From Bacteroidota bacterium (GTDB lineage Bacteria; Bacteroidota; Bacteroidia; B-17B0; Aurantibacillaceae), in the NCBI GenBank assembly GCA_021156365.1, contig JAJNDK010000007.1, forward strand, positions 186,001-250,000: 64,000 nucleotides of DNA. The letters run 5' to 3'. Under the pieces are notes generated by a model that was not told the DNA's origin, searched no databases, and saw only the letters and a list, made by a program, of their open reading frames with translations. Shown piece after piece: positions 43,905-52,046 of this stretch (the stretch's first letter is position 1; every line of letters starts with the position of its first letter). Made by a program: the position numbers and the translations under genes.

Positions 43905-44402
43905 TTAATTCGAATGAATTCCAGTACAGCCGTCTGTTTTCATTTTTGGGATGTCGGTGGAATTAATAGTACAATCCGGGGGGCTGTGATTGGAACAGCA
44001 GAACATGACCAGGCTGTACTCAACGATCTTTTTTTGCTGGGTTTTTTCCTGTATATACTCTACGATCATTTTTTTTCCGCCTTCCAGCAGTCGCACTTTT
44101 CCATAGTACGACAGGAACTTGTGGCTTTTCGCATCAAGGACTGAGTTTTTGATCGTTGCTTTCCCTGAATCGGTACTGATGATGGTAGTAAAGTTCAGTG
44201 AATCGGAAGCGGGTTTGATAAGGATCATTGAATCTTTAAACAGATCGAAGGTCATGGTTTGGGGCATAACTGTTTTTTCGAACTCTTTGGTTACTTTCCA
44301 GCTGCCTAACAGGGATTTCTGTGCAGACAGCGGATTTGCGCAAAGCACGAAAAACAGGACGGGAATAAAAAATTTATTCAGGATCTTTTTTGTCTTTTTC
44401 AT
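43905..44402 (-). CDS. Secreted lipocalin-like-sized hypothetical protein
   Basis: The start chosen is the Met of MKKTKKILNKFFIPVLFFVL, a clear signal peptide ending in SAQ (165 residues); the longer frame to 44471 lacks a sensible N-terminus. The mature part begins LLGSWKVTKEF and has short beta strands as in lipocalin-like domains. The C-terminus is Cys-rich (FCCSNHSPPDC). It overlaps the upstream gene by 29 bases. Function unknown, probably periplasmic. Confidence 0.72.
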   Translation of the reverse strand: MKKTKKILNKFFIPVLFFVLCANPLSAQKSLLGSWKVTKEFEKTVMPQTMTFDLFKDSMILIKPASDSLNFTTIISTDSGKATIKNSVLDAKSHKFLSYYGKVRLLEGGKKMIVEYIQEKTQQKKIVEYSLVMFCCSNHSPPDCTINSTDIPKMKTDGCTGIHSN

Positions 44403-44955
44403 TTTTGAAGAGTTTGGTTTGTGCAACATGCGTAAGAAATTCATAAAAGTGGCGGGAATACATGCCTGCAAAAAGGCTGAAAAAAAGAAGGGTAATAGGT
44501 TTTATTTTATTACTCCCTTCCACGAGCAGCGTAGGCACCAGGTAGCTCAAACCAAGGATAACGAGCCCCGTAAAAAAGCTCAGCAGGGGAATCGAGACGT
44601 AATTACTGTCTTCCGGTTTTGCTTTGTCCAGGGCTATTCCTTTCAGGATGGAGATGATGCCACCTAACATACCGAAGAAACAAGCGGTAAGCAGGTAGCC
44701 AATATAATCGGGAAGGGCTGCAATAAAAGGAAAGATCTTTTTGGATTTATCGTATTCTTTTACCAGCATCATTTCAGCCTTGTTGCTGTATATGACTTTT
44801 GTCTCAAAATCCTTTGCCTTTATCGTATCCTTAAAGTCGTATTTAGCACTGATCTGGTTATAGATCTCCGTATTCAATGCTCCGCCCAGTCCAAAATACA
44901 GACTGACCAGTGCAAAAAAGGTAAGGGAAAAAATGGCAGGGAATTTCTTTTTCAT
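44374..44955 (-). CDS. Polytopic membrane protein, unknown function
   Basis: The 193-residue protein has an N-terminal hydrophobic segment (FPAIFSLTFFALVSLYFGLG), a periplasm-sized loop (about 30-75) and three further membrane segments (YIGYLLTACFFGMLGGIISI, IPLLSFFTGLVILGLSYLV, PITLLFFSLFAGMYS). The end is very charged (FKNEKDKKDPE). Cassette gene, 10 bases after the coiled-coil protein gene. Not recognised. Confidence 0.78.
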   Translation of the reverse strand: MKKKFPAIFSLTFFALVSLYFGLGGALNTEIYNQISAKYDFKDTIKAKDFETKVIYSNKAEMMLVKEYDKSKKIFPFIAALPDYIGYLLTACFFGMLGGIISILKGIALDKAKPEDSNYVSIPLLSFFTGLVILGLSYLVPTLLVEGSNKIKPITLLFFSLFAGMYSRHFYEFLTHVAQTKLFKNEKDKKDPE

Positions 44956-44965
44956 GATGTTTCTG

Positions 44966-45937
44966 TTAAGTAGTGGTGGGAGGCTCTTTGGTTGTCGTCG
45001 TATTACTCTGTGTAGTACTGGTGGTCGTTGTCACTACCGGCGCCGGCGGATTCGGGTTCGGTGGCGGGTTGTTGGTAGGAGGCGGGTTTTGTACCGGCGA
45101 AGTCCTTGTTTTTCCAAGTATGTAACCGGAGATCCCGGCAAGTATCGCAGCTAATTCTTTACCTTCTAATATGCCTAATATCCCGAAAAGGATGATGGCA
45201 ATGATCAATACAAAAATGGTAATGAACTGAAGTCCCGTATCGCTGAAAAAATAATCTGCCACATTTTTTCGTGAGCGCAGGATCACTACAATAAAGATGA
45301 TCAGCAAACCGCCTAAGAGGAAAGCAAAGCCGATGCTGATGTCCTTACGGAATTCCTGGTTGTGGTATTCCGGTGCAAGCGTGGAGTCGAGCTGATCCTG
45401 GCAGCAAGCCAGATCGGCTTTCACTACCCTCAGGTTCTTCTTCAGCGTTTCGTATTCCTGCTGGCGTTTTTTCTCTCCCAAGGCACAGGTCTGCAGTTGT
45501 GATTTCAGATCCCTGAGCTCAGGAATGGTTTGTTTGGTGCTGCCATATACATTGATATTGCAGTTGGGCAGGTACACATCTATCGCCGCATCTTTGGTTT
45601 CGGAAGCAGTCGCAATTTTAATCGCTTCATCGATCTGGCCGCTTTTCAGTGTGATCAGCTCCAGGTTCCGATTGATGTCGGTGTAGTTGGCGAGCTCCAT
45701 CTGTATCAATTCCTGCAGGTTTTGTTTCTCCTGCAGATAACCGCGCAGCTTCTTGAAATTTATTTTGTCGTCGGGGGTATCAAAGGTTTTGGCAAAATCC
45801 GGCTGGATCGAATCAGTCTTGTACTCGTCGATACTTATTTTTTCAGGGTTCGGATTCTCCTGCGCTCTCAGTGCCGGAGTGGCAAAGAACGCAAGCAGGA
45901 TAAGTAGGCTGAAGGAGGATAGAAATGTTTTCTTCAT
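44966..45937 (-). CDS. Envelope protein with coiled-coil domain, two-helix GIS module and Pro/Thr-rich tail
   Basis: The 323-residue protein has a signal peptide (to LRAQ), a helical, coiled-coil-like domain (about 45-195), a membrane helix (GFAFLLGGLLIIFIVVIL) and then a second module: LQFITIFVLIIAIILFGIL followed by ELAAILAGISGYILGK. The last 45 residues are low-complexity Pro then Thr (NPPPTNNPPPNPNPP). The module resembles two copies in the 432-residue protein at 50413-51711. Inference: a structural inner-membrane component of the cassette. Confidence 0.8.
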   Translation of the reverse strand: MKKTFLSSFSLLILLAFFATPALRAQENPNPEKISIDEYKTDSIQPDFAKTFDTPDDKINFKKLRGYLQEKQNLQELIQMELANYTDINRNLELITLKSGQIDEAIKIATASETKDAAIDVYLPNCNINVYGSTKQTIPELRDLKSQLQTCALGEKKRQQEYETLKKNLRVVKADLACCQDQLDSTLAPEYHNQEFRKDISIGFAFLLGGLLIIFIVVILRSRKNVADYFFSDTGLQFITIFVLIIAIILFGILGILEGKELAAILAGISGYILGKTRTSPVQNPPPTNNPPPNPNPPAPVVTTTTSTTQSNTTTTKEPPTTT

Positions 45938-45980: not shown

Positions 45981-48422
45981 TTATTTTTTAAAATCCGTTA
46001 CCTTGAGATTGTACAATGGAATATCCACCACGATCGATGCCTGCCAGCGCCATGCCCTGTTTGCAGTGATATTGGAACCGGAGCTGATCTGGTCTACATT
46101 GTTAAGTGCCGGTACCAATTGTCCGCCACCGGTGAGGGTGATCGGTGTTTTCGGGATGTTGATACCTAACTGTGCACCCGGTGCAAAAATATTGGCCACG
46201 CTCACTTTAAAGTCAGAAGGAAGTGCTGTCTGATCACCGTTCAGCATATAAAAATTCACCAGGGCACCGAGGTCGGCAAGCTGGAAGATAGCGCTCACAC
46301 CCCAGCCGCATTTCGAACCTTTGTTGAAGGCAATACCAATAGGTGCATACAGTCCGTATGAATTAAAAGAAGCCGCTTTGCGAATGGTGTCGTATCTGTT
46401 CATGGTGGCATTCCATACCGTATCGCTGATATGCGTATTCACCTTGCCGTAAAATGCTCCGCAATAAGCGTTGAGTGTAATACTGCAGTTAGAGTTACGT
46501 TTGATGGCAGAGCTTCCTACCGGTAGTACCGATGCTTCGAGAGCTTTTTTAACTTCATCCGAAGACTTTGCGCTGGCCACGGTTGAGATCACGGTTCCGT
46601 ATTTTACAAAAGGACTGCCAATAGGCTTTAATAAAGGATCACTTTTGGTAAGCTTGCCCAGCAGGATACTGGCATCATATATAGCGGCTGAGTATTGTTT
46701 CACCGAGATGTGATACACCATGTCTACGGATGGTGTGAGGTAGGATTCCACCAAAAAGTATTTTGCTTCCAGGCTGTCACCCACCATGCGTTTCAGGATC
46801 GGGCTCTGGATCACCGGTTTCAGGGAAGCATTGAAGGTTTGATAATAATTATACAGTGCCTGCGGATCGGCTTCGGTGGAATTGTCGATGGCAATTTTTA
46901 TTTTCTTTACTGCATTGTTGGCCGCATTAAAGGCAGCATAGCCGTTCTTTACCAGTACTTCATATTCTTTTAGCGTAACAGCTTTATTCATTAAGATCTC
47001 CTGGAAAGTGACAGTGGTAAGCTTGTCATTCTTATAGAATTTTATTTTTTGTTCCTCTGCTTTCACCTGCTCAATGGCAAGCAGCAGTCCTACGTATGCT
47101 TTGAAAGCCAGCTTTGTTTTGAACAGGGCAGTCAGCTCTTTCTGGTTGATCCAGACTTGCTCTTCATCCTTGCTTAGCAGGCTCTGTGAGAGCAGATTGC
47201 TCAGCTCGATAGAAGAGACCACATTATAACTTAGCTTGTTCTTGTCTTCGGTGATCTGTTTCAATTCTGTAAATTCAGAAGATTCCGTTACGGAATTAAG
47301 CAGGACAGAAGGATTGGGAGTTTGGGGAGCTTCTTTGGCAGTGTACATGCCCAGCGCAACCCATTTGCCGGCTTCTGTTTTAAAGAAGGCCTCTATTTTC
47401 AGCATTCGTGCCTTGCAATCAGCTTCCTTGGTTGTTTTCTTTTTCTTCCTGTCGCCATCAAGGCTCACGTCTTTACAATCGTTTGTATCCAGATCCTTTA
47501 TCCCGTAAAAATTCTCGGGGAGGTTCCGTACATCAGTTTCGAATGCTTCTTTTAATATCTGGATCACGGAAGCATAGGAATAAGATTCGATGATCTTCAA
47601 ACATCCGGTCGTTTTAGGGAATATAGTTGTCAGCTCCGGATAGGCAATGAGCTGCTCTTTCATATGACGGAAAAAGGCTTCGTTCAGTTCTTCTTTGGTA
47701 CGCTCTGCAATCAGGCGGGCCATGCCGGCTGCAGCATAAGTGATATCGGTACTCCCGATCCCTGTTACCAGGCTGGCAATGCCACCGCCATGGATATTTG
47801 TGTTGGGAAAGGGATTGCGGCCCAGAACATCTTTTAAATATTCGTTTTTTTCCAAAAGGTCGTAATTCAGTCCGTATTGAATGAGAATAGTGGACCGAAG
47901 GCTATCGGATGTAGAATCATTGACGAGTTTCAAGGCATCATAATATACATACCCGGATTCGTAGCCTTCTTCTTCTTTTCGCAGCTCCTTTTTGCGTACT
48001 TTAGTTCCAGGGACAGTTGTTACTGTTGGCGTTTGTGGTGAAGTGGAGAGGATCTTTACGGTAAAGAGCTCATTGCCGATTTTAAATCTGAACTCATTGG
48101 GATTCAGTTTTTCTACTCCCATGTTGGTGGTACGGTCTTCATTAATTACAATTTTATACCCGCCGTCCCTATTGCGAAACCCTGCAGCGTTATCGAAATT
48201 TTTTGCAGGGAGTGTCGGGAAGCCGCTGGTTCCCGGGAATTCTATTTTTTTTCCGTCAAAGCCGGCGCTAAAATATAAACGGAGGGGCAGCACTACTTTC
48301 TGCAGGCTGTCTTTGTTTGTTACGTTAATAGTGGTTCCCTGTATGTCAAAGGTAACATTGGTGCCCTGTGCAAAGGTGAACACAGATAGGAATAAAAATG
48401 CTGCGAATAATAGATTTTTCAT
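45981..48422 (-). CDS. Large secreted protein, possible outer-membrane component, unknown family
   Basis: The 813-residue protein has a signal peptide (MKNLLFAAFLFLSVFTFAQG). There is a beta-rich N-terminal domain (about 20-130), a long helical middle (about 190-640) and a C-terminal part (about 650-813) of alternating strands (YGLYAPIGIAFNKG, GWGVSAIFQLADLGALVNF, PITLTGGGQLVPALNN) ending in an aromatic strand, as in beta-barrel ends. There is no T9SS tail. It lies 3 bases after the protease gene, so they are likely coupled. No family recognised. Confidence 0.8.
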   Translation of the reverse strand: MKNLLFAAFLFLSVFTFAQGTNVTFDIQGTTINVTNKDSLQKVVLPLRLYFSAGFDGKKIEFPGTSGFPTLPAKNFDNAAGFRNRDGGYKIVINEDRTTNMGVEKLNPNEFRFKIGNELFTVKILSTSPQTPTVTTVPGTKVRKKELRKEEEGYESGYVYYDALKLVNDSTSDSLRSTILIQYGLNYDLLEKNEYLKDVLGRNPFPNTNIHGGGIASLVTGIGSTDITYAAAGMARLIAERTKEELNEAFFRHMKEQLIAYPELTTIFPKTTGCLKIIESYSYASVIQILKEAFETDVRNLPENFYGIKDLDTNDCKDVSLDGDRKKKKTTKEADCKARMLKIEAFFKTEAGKWVALGMYTAKEAPQTPNPSVLLNSVTESSEFTELKQITEDKNKLSYNVVSSIELSNLLSQSLLSKDEEQVWINQKELTALFKTKLAFKAYVGLLLAIEQVKAEEQKIKFYKNDKLTTVTFQEILMNKAVTLKEYEVLVKNGYAAFNAANNAVKKIKIAIDNSTEADPQALYNYYQTFNASLKPVIQSPILKRMVGDSLEAKYFLVESYLTPSVDMVYHISVKQYSAAIYDASILLGKLTKSDPLLKPIGSPFVKYGTVISTVASAKSSDEVKKALEASVLPVGSSAIKRNSNCSITLNAYCGAFYGKVNTHISDTVWNATMNRYDTIRKAASFNSYGLYAPIGIAFNKGSKCGWGVSAIFQLADLGALVNFYMLNGDQTALPSDFKVSVANIFAPGAQLGINIPKTPITLTGGGQLVPALNNVDQISSGSNITANRAWRWQASIVVDIPLYNLKVTDFKK

Positions 48423-48425
48423 GTG

Positions 48426-49631
48426 TTATAGTATATTAAAGTTAAATGAATCGAGAGTTGGATGAACCGGGAGAACAAAAGAGAATTTATCATTACCACC
48501 CAGAAGCATCCCGATGAGCTTACCTGTTTTTTTGTGGTACACTGCACTGCCGGAGTCGCCTCCTACAGATATACCCTTCGATTTCTGCCGGTCGTTATTG
48601 GTCCCGATCAGGATAATATTGCTCAGCTCCTTGCTTATATTGGTGTAACTGATCTCGAAAGAAACATTGTAATCAAGGATATAGGCATCACGTTTGTTGT
48701 TTCGCCGCGATACGATAGTAACATTCGGCTCCGGACTGTGCAGGTCATCATCTGAAATAATATACTGTCCCTTGCTGAACGAAATGTAATTTTTCAATAA
48801 GTTGGATTTATTGGTAAGCTCCGCAATAGCCAGATCCTGGTTGAATTGCATTTGCTGGAAAAGCAGTGTTGCTTTCGGCTCGAAATTTATCAGCACATTT
48901 CTTTTCTGTTCCTCAGAAAGAATGCCACCATAATCTATGCATTTCCCATGAGTAAAAATATGTCCGGAGGTTACTACACCTACGAACTCCGGGTTATCAC
49001 GCGGGCTCACCAGGCAACAGATGGTACCCATGTAATTGGAACTTACGCTGTCACTCAGCTCATCCGTAGCCTGCCCGATATGCGGGATAGCTTCGCCCAT
49101 GCCTGTTACTATTTCGGTTTTCACTTTGATGGAAGAACCATCAGGAAGCATTACCTCCAGCTCCAGGGGAAGACGTGTTTTATTCGAGTCCTTTATATAT
49201 ATAGCTACAATGTGTTTGCCATTGTGAAGGGTATCGCTCAGCGACAGGATGTTTTTGAAATTAGCCATCAATACGCCTTTGTGCTGTTGGATCGCTAAAC
49301 GGGTAATATCGGTAGGGCTCAGGCCGTGTGCGGAAGGAGCCGGCTTTGTTACTTTTTTAGTTATAACTTTCGTTGGTACCGGCTTCGGACTTTTCTTTTT
49401 CACGATAGGTGCCGTTGTTTTCCTGGCAATTGGTTTTACCGTTTTCTTCTTAACAGTCTTCGTGATTTTTTTAGGGGCAGCTTTCACTGCCTTCTTCTTT
49501 GCAGGCAGTTTGGCTTTTGCCGTTTTTTTAGCAGCGGGCTTCACCGCTTTCCGGCGGGTAGGTTTCGCTGCAGGCTTTGTTTTCTTTTTTCCTGCCTTAG
49601 CTGCCGGCGCTGTTTTTTTCTTTGTAGCCAT
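48426..49631 (-). CDS. Trypsin-like serine protease with histone-H1-like Lys/Ala/Pro tail
   Basis: The 401-residue protein has residues 1-98 almost entirely of Lys, Ala, Pro, Thr and Val in AAK/PAAKK-type repeats, like bacterial histone-H1-like proteins. A chymotrypsin-fold domain follows, with the triad read as His224 (VTSGHIF), Asp266 (NQDLAIAEL) and Ser360 (GGDSGSAVY), which are the standard contexts. There is no signal peptide. The basic tail could bind DNA, RNA or an anionic envelope polymer. Inference: a localised protease, perhaps activating or cutting a cassette partner. Very unusual fusion. Confidence 0.87.
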   Translation of the reverse strand: MATKKKTAPAAKAGKKKTKPAAKPTRRKAVKPAAKKTAKAKLPAKKKAVKAAPKKITKTVKKKTVKPIARKTTAPIVKKKSPKPVPTKVITKKVTKPAPSAHGLSPTDITRLAIQQHKGVLMANFKNILSLSDTLHNGKHIVAIYIKDSNKTRLPLELEVMLPDGSSIKVKTEIVTGMGEAIPHIGQATDELSDSVSSNYMGTICCLVSPRDNPEFVGVVTSGHIFTHGKCIDYGGILSEEQKRNVLINFEPKATLLFQQMQFNQDLAIAELTNKSNLLKNYISFSKGQYIISDDDLHSPEPNVTIVSRRNNKRDAYILDYNVSFEISYTNISKELSNIILIGTNNDRQKSKGISVGGDSGSAVYHKKTGKLIGMLLGGNDKFSFVLPVHPTLDSFNFNIL

Positions 49632-49688: not shown

Positions 49689-50387
49689 TCAAAGTCCTTT
49701 CAGCATCGCGATCAGGTTGTCCTGTGGCGAGCAGTCCGATTTGTCTTTGCGCACATTGGTATGTGTCCACAGGCCCGGTTTGCCCTCTATGGCATCCGGG
49801 TGTTGCAAAAAAGCTTCTGCTCCTTTCCCTTCATTCAGCAGTGCCGGCAGACCGCTTTTCAGATCGATGTTGTAGCGCGTTCCAAGATCCAGCAGCAGGT
49901 CCTTCAACGCACTTAACTGTTTGTCGGTATACCGGTGATAATACTGATACCCTTTGAAAGGAGTTTCCAGCTTCACTACCATTTCTTCGGGAACAGGCTT
50001 GTTCACATAGTTGTAATACTTACCATCAAAAGATAGTTTGAGCGGACCGTAGTTGCAGATCTCAATAGCTATCGACTTTTTGTTGAGTGCGGCGTTGTTG
50101 GATGTTGTCAGTCCCAAATGATGCGCCCAGTATTGATCGGGAAAACAATTGCAGATCACACCATCCCAGGATACATCGTTATCGTATGTGGAGATCCCTC
50201 CGATGATATATGCCGTAGCTACCCGCAATTGCTCGTCGTTGGCTGTACGATCACCATTCCAGCCTGCTATTGTCCAGTCGGGACGATGCCCACCCGCAGT
50301 GTGATGGATCACGATCGTATCTTTTGCGATCTCTGCTTCGTAATACTCTCCTTTTTTCAGAGGAATATTTTTAATGGTAAGTGACAT
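49689..50387 (-). CDS. N-acetylmuramoyl-L-alanine amidase (Amidase_2 type)
   Basis: The 232-residue protein has the first zinc ligand in IVIHHTAGG (His28/29), YWAHHLG (about 87-92), IEICNYG and the late ligands in GLWTHTNVRKDKSDCSP (His209 and Cys219, T7-lysozyme-like spacing). It cuts the bond between MurNAc and L-Ala of peptidoglycan. It lacks a signal peptide, so it must be delivered by another route, act on lysis, or act on cytosolic muropeptides. It is second gene of the cassette, 25 bases after the membrane protein. Confidence 0.9.
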   Translation of the reverse strand: MSLTIKNIPLKKGEYYEAEIAKDTIVIHHTAGGHRPDWTIAGWNGDRTANDEQLRVATAYIIGGISTYDNDVSWDGVICNCFPDQYWAHHLGLTTSNNAALNKKSIAIEICNYGPLKLSFDGKYYNYVNKPVPEEMVVKLETPFKGYQYYHRYTDKQLSALKDLLLDLGTRYNIDLKSGLPALLNEGKGAEAFLQHPDAIEGKPGLWTHTNVRKDKSDCSPQDNLIAMLKGL

Positions 50388-50412: not shown

Positions 50413-51711
50413 TTACTCTTTTGTTTTCAGGCCGGCATACAATCCGCTGCTGATCCCCATCAGGGTCATCATGGTCTCGCTGAACTGTGGTAATTTCAGA
50501 CAATACAGCACCTGCCAGATAAAATAGATACCAAGGAAAATAGTGAATAGCAGGAGCTGCAAACGATGAAGGCTGATGGTTTTTCCGTCGTTCAGCAGGT
50601 CATATGGCCAGCCTTTGCTCTTTGATTTCTTGTCGATAAATTCCTGCACCAGCGCAGTTGATTTCTGTTTGGATTCTGCTGCCAGCTGTTCGGGCGTTTT
50701 ATTAGGATCGGTATCTTCTTCGTTCTCCGGCTTCGAATCGATCAGCTTACCGAGATAGAAAGTACTTCCGCTGATACCTAAGAGGATCAGCACCGTTCCG
50801 GTTGGTGCAGCGAGATCGTCGGTTACAGCCCAGATATGAATGATACTGAAAAAGATAATGAGCAGCCAGAAGAGGAATTGGAAACGGGCAAGGCTGTAAG
50901 GAATATCTTTTATATTAATAGTACCCGATGCAGCATTTGTTTTAGTATTGTCGAAAACGATCTTTACGCCATTCTGTGCATACAGGCCGCTGTCCTTGCC
51001 CATGCCCTTTCCATAGCGCCACAGCAATATAAGGATGATAACAATAAGCGGATAGGCGATCAGCCACATCATCCACCAGGAAGAAGTGTGCAGCTTTAAG
51101 CTGGATATTTCGCAATCCGGGCTCCGGAATTCGTCGTAGAATGTTCCCAGGCTGAAGATAGCTATACGGCTCTTTGTCCAGTAGTTGGGCCATGCATAGA
51201 ACATTTTCCAGGGAGAAGTGCGGGTCGTGTCCGTATTCAGCCGGAAAACAATGGAAGAATTGGTTTTGTTTACAAAGAGCGGTTTGATATTCGTGAAGCA
51301 GACCCCGTTGATCCAAAGCCTTAGCGAATCAGGACGTTTTTGAGCATACTCTACTCCGGCGGCGTTTGTATAAACGATTATATAGTCTTCGGGATACACA
51401 CACTTGCAGGTGGACGTATCCTGTTTGCCACAGGCATCGGCACTGGTGAAAAACTTTGTTACTTTAAGTGTCACGATCTTTTGCTCCGCTGTTTTTTTTG
51501 CTGCCAGCGCCTTTTTCAGGGAATCGATGGTGACTTTTTGCTTTGTGTCGTCAGTTGCAGCAGGTGTTGTTGTAGTTGTAGCAGCAGTTGTTGTTGTTCC
51601 TGTGGGTGGCGGAATTGGCGCCTGTGCGTTTGCAGTAAAGAATAAAAAGCAGCCTGCAATGATCAGGAGCGTGTTTCGGCGAATTGCCTTTGTGGGTAGA
51701 TGAATATTCAT
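50413..51711 (-). CDS. Envelope membrane protein with duplicated two-helix GIS module
   Basis: The 432-residue protein has a signal peptide (to FTANAQ), a Pro/Thr-rich linker (APIPPPTGTTTTAATTTTTP), a periplasmic domain with several Cys (about 85-205) and a membrane helix (WLIAYPLIVIILILLW). Two related modules follow: LARFQFLFWLLIIFFSIIHI with VLILLGISGSTFYLGKLID, and LHRLQLLLFTIFLGIYFIW with MMTLMGISSGLYAGLK. A charged loop separates them. First gene of the cassette, directly downstream of the promoter/activator array. Family not recognised. Confidence 0.82.
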   Translation of the reverse strand: MNIHLPTKAIRRNTLLIIAGCFLFFTANAQAPIPPPTGTTTTAATTTTTPAATDDTKQKVTIDSLKKALAAKKTAEQKIVTLKVTKFFTSADACGKQDTSTCKCVYPEDYIIVYTNAAGVEYAQKRPDSLRLWINGVCFTNIKPLFVNKTNSSIVFRLNTDTTRTSPWKMFYAWPNYWTKSRIAIFSLGTFYDEFRSPDCEISSLKLHTSSWWMMWLIAYPLIVIILILLWRYGKGMGKDSGLYAQNGVKIVFDNTKTNAASGTINIKDIPYSLARFQFLFWLLIIFFSIIHIWAVTDDLAAPTGTVLILLGISGSTFYLGKLIDSKPENEEDTDPNKTPEQLAAESKQKSTALVQEFIDKKSKSKGWPYDLLNDGKTISLHRLQLLLFTIFLGIYFIWQVLYCLKLPQFSETMMTLMGISSGLYAGLKTKE

Positions 51712-51738
51712 AATTTAACTGTCAAGGGGTTAATGCAC

Positions 51739-51769
51739 CAAACATATAACATTCCTGCTCCTAAAACAA
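51739..51769 (-). promoter_or_regulatory. Promoter of the 12-gene cassette
   Basis: On the minus strand, TTG (51767-51769), a 20-base spacer and TATGTTTG (51739-51746) match the Bacteroidota -33/-7 consensus. The start codon of the first cassette gene is 28 bases downstream. Confidence 0.75.
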
Positions 51770-51770
51770 G

Positions 51771-51834
51771 CGTAGAACTACGGTATTTTTTATACGTAGA
51801 AATACGGGTGTTTTCATACGTAGAAATACGGGTA
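51771..51834. promoter_or_regulatory. Three CGTA-N4-TACG palindromes at an exact 24-base period (putative activator sites)
   Basis: CGTAGAACTACGG (from 51771), CGTAGAAATACGG (from 51795) and CGTAGAAATACGG (from 51819) are each a CGTA/TACG inverted repeat with a 4-base centre. They begin one base beyond the cassette -33 element. Position and phasing fit cooperative binding of a dimeric activator. The TACG half-site would suit a NarL/LuxR-type HTH protein, but that identification is inference. The rest of 51712-52046 (to the cupin ATG) shows no gene. Confidence 0.7.
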
Positions 51835-52046
51835 GGGGCGTGGTGTTTTTACGCAGTCGGGCAAAAAAATCCTTAATTTACGGGCTTTTTATGGAGGTGC
51901 CCGAAAAGGGTTTTTTCGACCTTTTTTTGCACCGGAAATGAGCCGGAAGAAAGCAAATCCTGCCCGGAACGAAAAAATCCGCTATTGTTTTCCAACTGCT
52001 GCAGTACCAATTTTTATTAGTTTTAAAGCTGAAAAGCCCAATTCAC

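Follow-up and report, generated by a model that had tools for sequence, protein, structure and literature searches.

A Phased Palindrome Array Upstream of a Bacteroidota Gene Cassette as a Likely Operator for a NarL/FixJ-Family Response Regulator

Introduction

Class II transcription activators, such as CRP, bind at a site at -41.5. Escherichia coli NarL, a regulator with REC and GerE domains, acts at promoters with several sites, which are inverted 16-bp sequences with TAC...GTA outer ends; an engineered site reads TACCCCT-AA-AGGGGTA (PMC4549865). Bacteroidota sigma-A promoters have the form TTG ... TAnnTTTG, and the -7 box was mapped to positions -12 to -5 in Flavobacterium psychrophilum (PMC9723704).

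We analyzed a stretch of 64 kb (hereafter, the window), corresponding to positions 186001-250000 of contig C9 in a 5.31-Mb Bacteroidota genome, in which a cassette of seven genes is preceded by a tandem array of palindromes. Judging from its sequence context and comparative genomics, the array is likely to be bound cooperatively, as an operator, by a NarL/FixJ-family response regulator whose gene lies on another contig, C17.

The Operator Array and Its Promoter

The window contains three exact CGTANNNNTACG sites and no other exact match (Table 1). The initial annotation had reported CGTA-N4-TACG palindromes with a period of 24 bases, and exact matches indeed start at 51771, 51795 and 51819; in 100 dinucleotide-shuffled versions of the window, the mean number of exact sites was 0.29, and no 24-spaced pair occurred. 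The sites are inverted repeats, as described, and their 12-mers form the core of a larger 14-16 bp palindrome, TA-X-GTA-N4-TAC-X'-TA. The 14-mer of the degenerate fourth site, TGCGTAAAAACACC, is common to four of the genome's five arrays (one copy has one mismatch) and is found elsewhere only once, with one mismatch.

Table 1. Coordinates of the array, promoter, cassette and candidate regulator (positions in the window unless a contig is given)
Feature	Position	Strand	Remarks
Operator site 1	51771..51782	-	promoter-proximal; CGTAGTTCTACG on the minus strand; centre about -42 relative to the predicted start
Operator site 2	51795..51806	-	CGTATTTCTACG; 24 bp upstream of site 1
Operator site 3	51819..51830	-	CGTATTTCTACG; 24 bp upstream of site 2
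Degenerate fourth site	51842..51855	-	TGCGTAAAAACACC; half-site CGTA plus CACC; 23 bp beyond site 3
-33 element	51767..51769	-	TTG; one base from site 1
-7 element	51739..51746	-	TATGTTTG; 20 bases from TTG
Cassette gene 1	50413..51711	-	432-aa secreted/membrane protein without family match
Cassette gene 2	49689..50387	-	N-acetylmuramoyl-L-alanine amidase (Amidase_2)
Cassette gene 3	48426..49631	-	401 aa; N-terminus rich in Lys/Ala/Pro; GGDSGS motif resembling that of trypsin-like proteases (by eye)
Cassette gene 4	45981..48422	-	813-aa secreted protein without family match
Cassette gene 5	44966..45937	-	323-aa membrane protein without family match
Cassette gene 6	44374..44955	-	193-aa membrane protein without family match
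Cassette gene 7	43905..44402	-	small secreted protein; last of the close-packed run; ATG chosen by eye within the listed TTG ORF 43905-44471
NarL/FixJ-family response regulator	G000:C17:45352-46008	-	last gene of a four-gene operon

On the minus strand, the sequence reads site-C-TTG-N20-TATGTTTG, placing the array one base beyond the TTG, as annotated, and matching TTG-N20-TAnnTTTG perfectly. With the -7 box at -12 to -5, the predicted transcription start would lie near 51734, leaving 23 nt to the ATG at 51711, and the three sites near -42, -66 and -90. Site 1 would thus occupy a class II position, centred at about -42 (-42.5 with this placement of the box) and beside the -33 element. A genome-wide search for the composite layout (array, one base, TTG-N20-TAnnTTTG) found four places: the window cassette, a type I restriction-modification operon and a secreted nuclease, all three free of mismatches, and one further place with a single mismatch. 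The next-best places have two mismatches, and up to three mismatches a control pattern matches about equally often, so the weaker matches are ascribed to chance. The recurrence of one register at four promoters of the genome supports the cooperative-activator geometry put forward in the initial annotation.

The cassette genes are separated by gaps of 4-58 bases or overlap slightly, and the only terminator-like match on their minus strand is weak and lies inside a gene; we infer a single operon reaching from 51711 to about 43905. Searches of PADLOC, Pfam and NCBIfam gave no match for five of the first six cassette proteins, and no relative of the 813-aa protein was found in the plasmid collection. 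The 401-aa protein, which matched no family and no solved structure, combines a histone-H1-like tail with a trypsin-like-looking protease domain.

Arrays Elsewhere in the Genome and the C17 Two-Component Operon

The genome-wide motif scan suggested in the initial annotation found palindrome pairs at 23-24 bp at only five places (one each on C6, C7 and in the window, and two on C17), with none for a reversed-pattern control. One array precedes a type I restriction-modification operon, hsdM-S-R (PADLOC), whose last gene encodes an ATPase (678 aa) of the defence-candidate type PDC-M62A; another precedes a secreted DNA/RNA non-specific endonuclease, and another a 77-aa DUF3606-like protein (just below the Pfam cut-off). 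The two C17 arrays flank a four-gene operon encoding, in this order, a 104-aa protein that matched no known family, a ~240-aa membrane protein, a DesK/NarX-like histidine kinase and a NarL/FixJ-family response regulator. An acyltransferase gene lies at a C17 array, divergent from the two-component operon, and the array between them has the TTG-N20-TAnnTTTG register on neither side.

Among the 23 GerE-domain genes of the genome, the C17 regulator gene is the only one adjoining an array. The expectation that the regulator is encoded outside the window is supported, as the window encodes no GerE protein and the sole C9 match lies beyond it; the earlier guess of a LuxR/NarL-type regulator likewise finds its best candidate in the C17 protein. 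This protein (L006:7353-8009, minus strand) belongs to the NarL/FixJ family by its domains, with Response_reg at 86.5 bits and GerE at 54.8 bits, both above cut-off, and the adjacent kinase (L006:8022-8846, minus strand) matches HisKA_3 (28.0 bits) and HATPase_c (28.2 bits), also above cut-off. It is not a NarL ortholog, scoring 98.6 bits against a cut-off of 250 with the NCBIfam NarL model, and no equivalog among the 25 families listed was reached at its own cut-off. The closest solved full-length structures are of the VraR/LiaR type (5hev, E 3.4e-28), and the kinase matches LiaS weakly (35 bits against a cut-off of 450).

Homologous Operons and Arrays in Relatives

The small protein of the C17 operon is present in 40 of 87 family genomes, and in nearly all of the ~40 family loci examined, it is followed by the membrane protein, kinase and regulator. 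By the criterion of tandem core GTA-N4-TAC palindromes spaced 21-26 bp, 17 of 42 homologous loci have an array upstream of the first gene of the operon, versus 0.01 expected from shuffles, with no such array at the remaining 25. Promoter layout scores of at least 8/9 were obtained for 10 of 42 arrays of family genomes, versus 0.63 expected. In more distant Bacteroidota, triple arrays also occur upstream of the homologous operon in Sphingobacteriales JAD_PAG50586_3 (G142) and 0.3-0.5 kb downstream of the regulator gene in Draconibacterium aestuarii and Maribellus sediminis, and an array precedes the gene for a 102-aa small-protein homolog in G383.

The base flanking the array core varies by lineage, i.e., ACGTA...TACGT (C-type), AAGTA...TACTT (A-type) or AGGTA...TACCT (G-type), with some GAGTA or CCGTA. 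A search of the family genomes returned pairs of the A type in 11, of the G type in 13 and of the C type in 6; control patterns matched almost nowhere. The types match genome by genome; for example, G012 has 13 G-type pairs, G015 has seven, and the genome of the window has only C-type. None of the 86 other family genomes has an exact C-type pair at 23-24 bp, so the array at first seemed species-specific; this idea was rejected once A- and G-type arrays were found upstream of operon homologs. With the spacing range widened, G047, a member of the same genus, also proved to have a C-type array. The small-protein gene was not detected in the array-bearing genomes G068, G073 (family-genome search) and G056, and array type and regulator disagree for one C array in G067 and one A array in G026; other regulators may therefore share such sites.

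Similar palindromes were also seen in other contexts. Triple-array matches from Streptomyces and Tannerellaceae were discounted, being regarded as GC-rich or minisatellite repeats, and a match in L268, inside a coding region, looks like chance. The Tannerellaceae genomes L067, L068, L069, L077 and L078 carry long 23-bp tandem repeats of the CGTAACGTTACGAAGAGGCGCTT type, which share the palindrome shape and look like minisatellites. Two related viral contigs (L092:8778-8837 and L093:5828-5887) carry the same 24-spaced CGTA-N4-TACG triple with conserved spacers, and no recognisable promoter context was found at either. A third viral-classed contig, IMGVR_UViG_3300005663_000145 (L094:5087-5175), has a triple array in the exact array-C-TTG-N20-TACTTTTG layout before a small lipoprotein-like gene. 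In G381 (contigs C44 and C54; L060, L061), TACGTA-N4-TACGTA arrays at 23 bp precede genes for secreted or surface proteins (one Kelch-like by eye), and the neighbouring sequence that was read contains no two-component genes.

Covariation of Operator Base and Recognition Helix

The operator base varies together with one residue of the regulator's recognition helix, located by alignment to NarL-family structures. This residue is Asp in all eight regulators with G-type arrays, versus none of the 17 with A- or C-type arrays, in which it is Glu or, once, Asn (Fisher 9e-7, a value that ignores kinship and is inflated by near-identical copies). We take it to correspond to the base-contacting Lys188 of NarL. 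On the regulator tree, the G type requires at least three independent changes, so that the association does not stem from one inherited event. The homologous operon of G058 (L122/L174) has the pair GGGTG-N4-CACCC / GCGTG-N4-CACGG in place of GTA-N4-TAC, together with Asp in the recognition helix, possibly representing a fourth change towards a G-type operator. Across dozens of genomes, C/A/G operator bases that track recognition-helix residues form a natural specificity series, making a NarL-type code directly testable.

Arrays Upstream of Defence Genes

Beyond the restriction-modification operon described above, array promoters precede a SIR2-Argonaute protein in Chitinophagales MAG-368 (L070:3102-8000; PADLOC 1195 bits) and, in G073 (L265:161-2655), a PHP/AAA ATPase partly similar to Ppl. 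The last operator site and promoter (GCGTAGAAATACGGTTGGTATTGTG...GGGGAGGTTTGG) are nearly identical at these two loci, before unrelated defence genes, and no relative of the G073 array promoter was found in the plasmid collection. G- and A-type arrays also precede YqaE/Pmp3-like membrane proteins, small unassigned proteins and an NYN-like nuclease (named by eye), so the regulon would not consist of defence genes only. Array control of defence genes across genomes is a lead rather than an established finding. A broader proposal, which we consider tentative and somewhat doubtful, is that a Bacteroidota-wide module (~104-aa protein, membrane protein, kinase and NarL-type regulator) changes operator base and helix per lineage, thereby rewiring its regulon, and controls anti-phage genes in several lineages (type I restriction-modification, SIR2-Argonaute and Ppl-like ATPase); the protease/amidase cassette of the window would then be a candidate inducible defence or conflict system. 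If the defence link is true, restriction and Argonaute systems in Bacteroidota would be under two-component control.

Proposed Mechanism and Alternative Explanations

Adjacency of the arrays to the C17 operon and co-divergence of array base and helix identify the C17 response regulator as the likely binder. In the proposed mechanism, the kinase would phosphorylate the regulator, whose dimers would then occupy the 16-bp palindromes (TA-C-GTA-N4-TAC-G-TA), one dimer per palindrome. The three or four bound dimers, one every 23-24 bp, would align on one helix face, the innermost at about -42 and in contact with the -33 element, and would bring in the housekeeping RNA polymerase. Besides its own operon and the divergent acyltransferase gene, the regulator would activate the type I restriction-modification operon, the secreted DNA/RNA endonuclease, the DUF3606-like gene and the seven-gene cassette. 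An anonymous operon would thereby be tied to a specific signalling system, with a regulon of five promoters in one genome.

The array could instead be an activator array for one of the 22 other GerE proteins or for some other dimeric regulator, of which the C17 operon would be just one target. The genome does encode 23 GerE proteins, and arrays occur in genomes in which the small-protein gene is not detectable (G068, G073), but this assignment is unlikely: arrays are found on both sides of the C17 operon and next to its homologs in other families, and the array base varies in step with the recognition helix of the C17 regulator itself, with three independent changes for the G type. Nor do the palindromes look like an accidental cluster, a minisatellite or the remains of a DNA element with no role in regulation, readings to which we give next to no credence: unrelated tandem repeats with a similar 12-mer do exist in Tannerellaceae and Streptomyces, but the shuffles and the genome-wide control yielded nothing comparable, and sites and register are kept although the spacers, both between sites and within the promoter, vary between loci.

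As for the direction of control, the geometry suggests that the C17 regulator probably acts as an activator at about -42. With site 1 only one base from the TTG, a bound dimer could also exclude RNA polymerase, making the array a repressor operator. We regard this as very improbable: the -7 element and the start are both free of sites, the array continues upstream for 85 bp in a single register, and the -42 position, the classic one for class II activators, is conserved at four promoters. NarL itself uses a 7-2-7 site at about -40 to -49 to activate napF, and sites near the start to repress frdA (PMC4549865).

Comparison with Known Systems

The type of mechanism is known, i.e., a NarL-family regulator, 7-2-7-like inverted 16-bp sites and a class II position. 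The module, motif and specificity switch appear to be undescribed so far, as no description of the motif or module was found in the open-access literature. The -7 box of the array promoters agrees with the published Bacteroidota consensus (PMC9723704) and is perfect in three promoters here; unlike in Bacteroidota sigma-A promoters at large, the spacing here is always 20 and linked to the array. As in class II activation by CRP, the proximal site abuts the promoter's upstream element, but the protein family and promoter class are different, and a tandem array replaces the single site. The VraR/LiaR envelope-stress regulators, although closest in solved full-length structure, are similar at the family level only and belong to another phylum, with a different operon and operator. 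NarL shares with the system described here the domain architecture, the multiple sites per promoter and the inverted 16-bp format, the full palindrome here being TACGTAG-AA-ATACGTA. In contrast to NarL, three to four sites with a GTA-N4-TAC core stand in strict 23-24 bp phase before a Bacteroidota -33/-7 promoter, the operon includes two extra genes without a family, and the regulator is not an ortholog.
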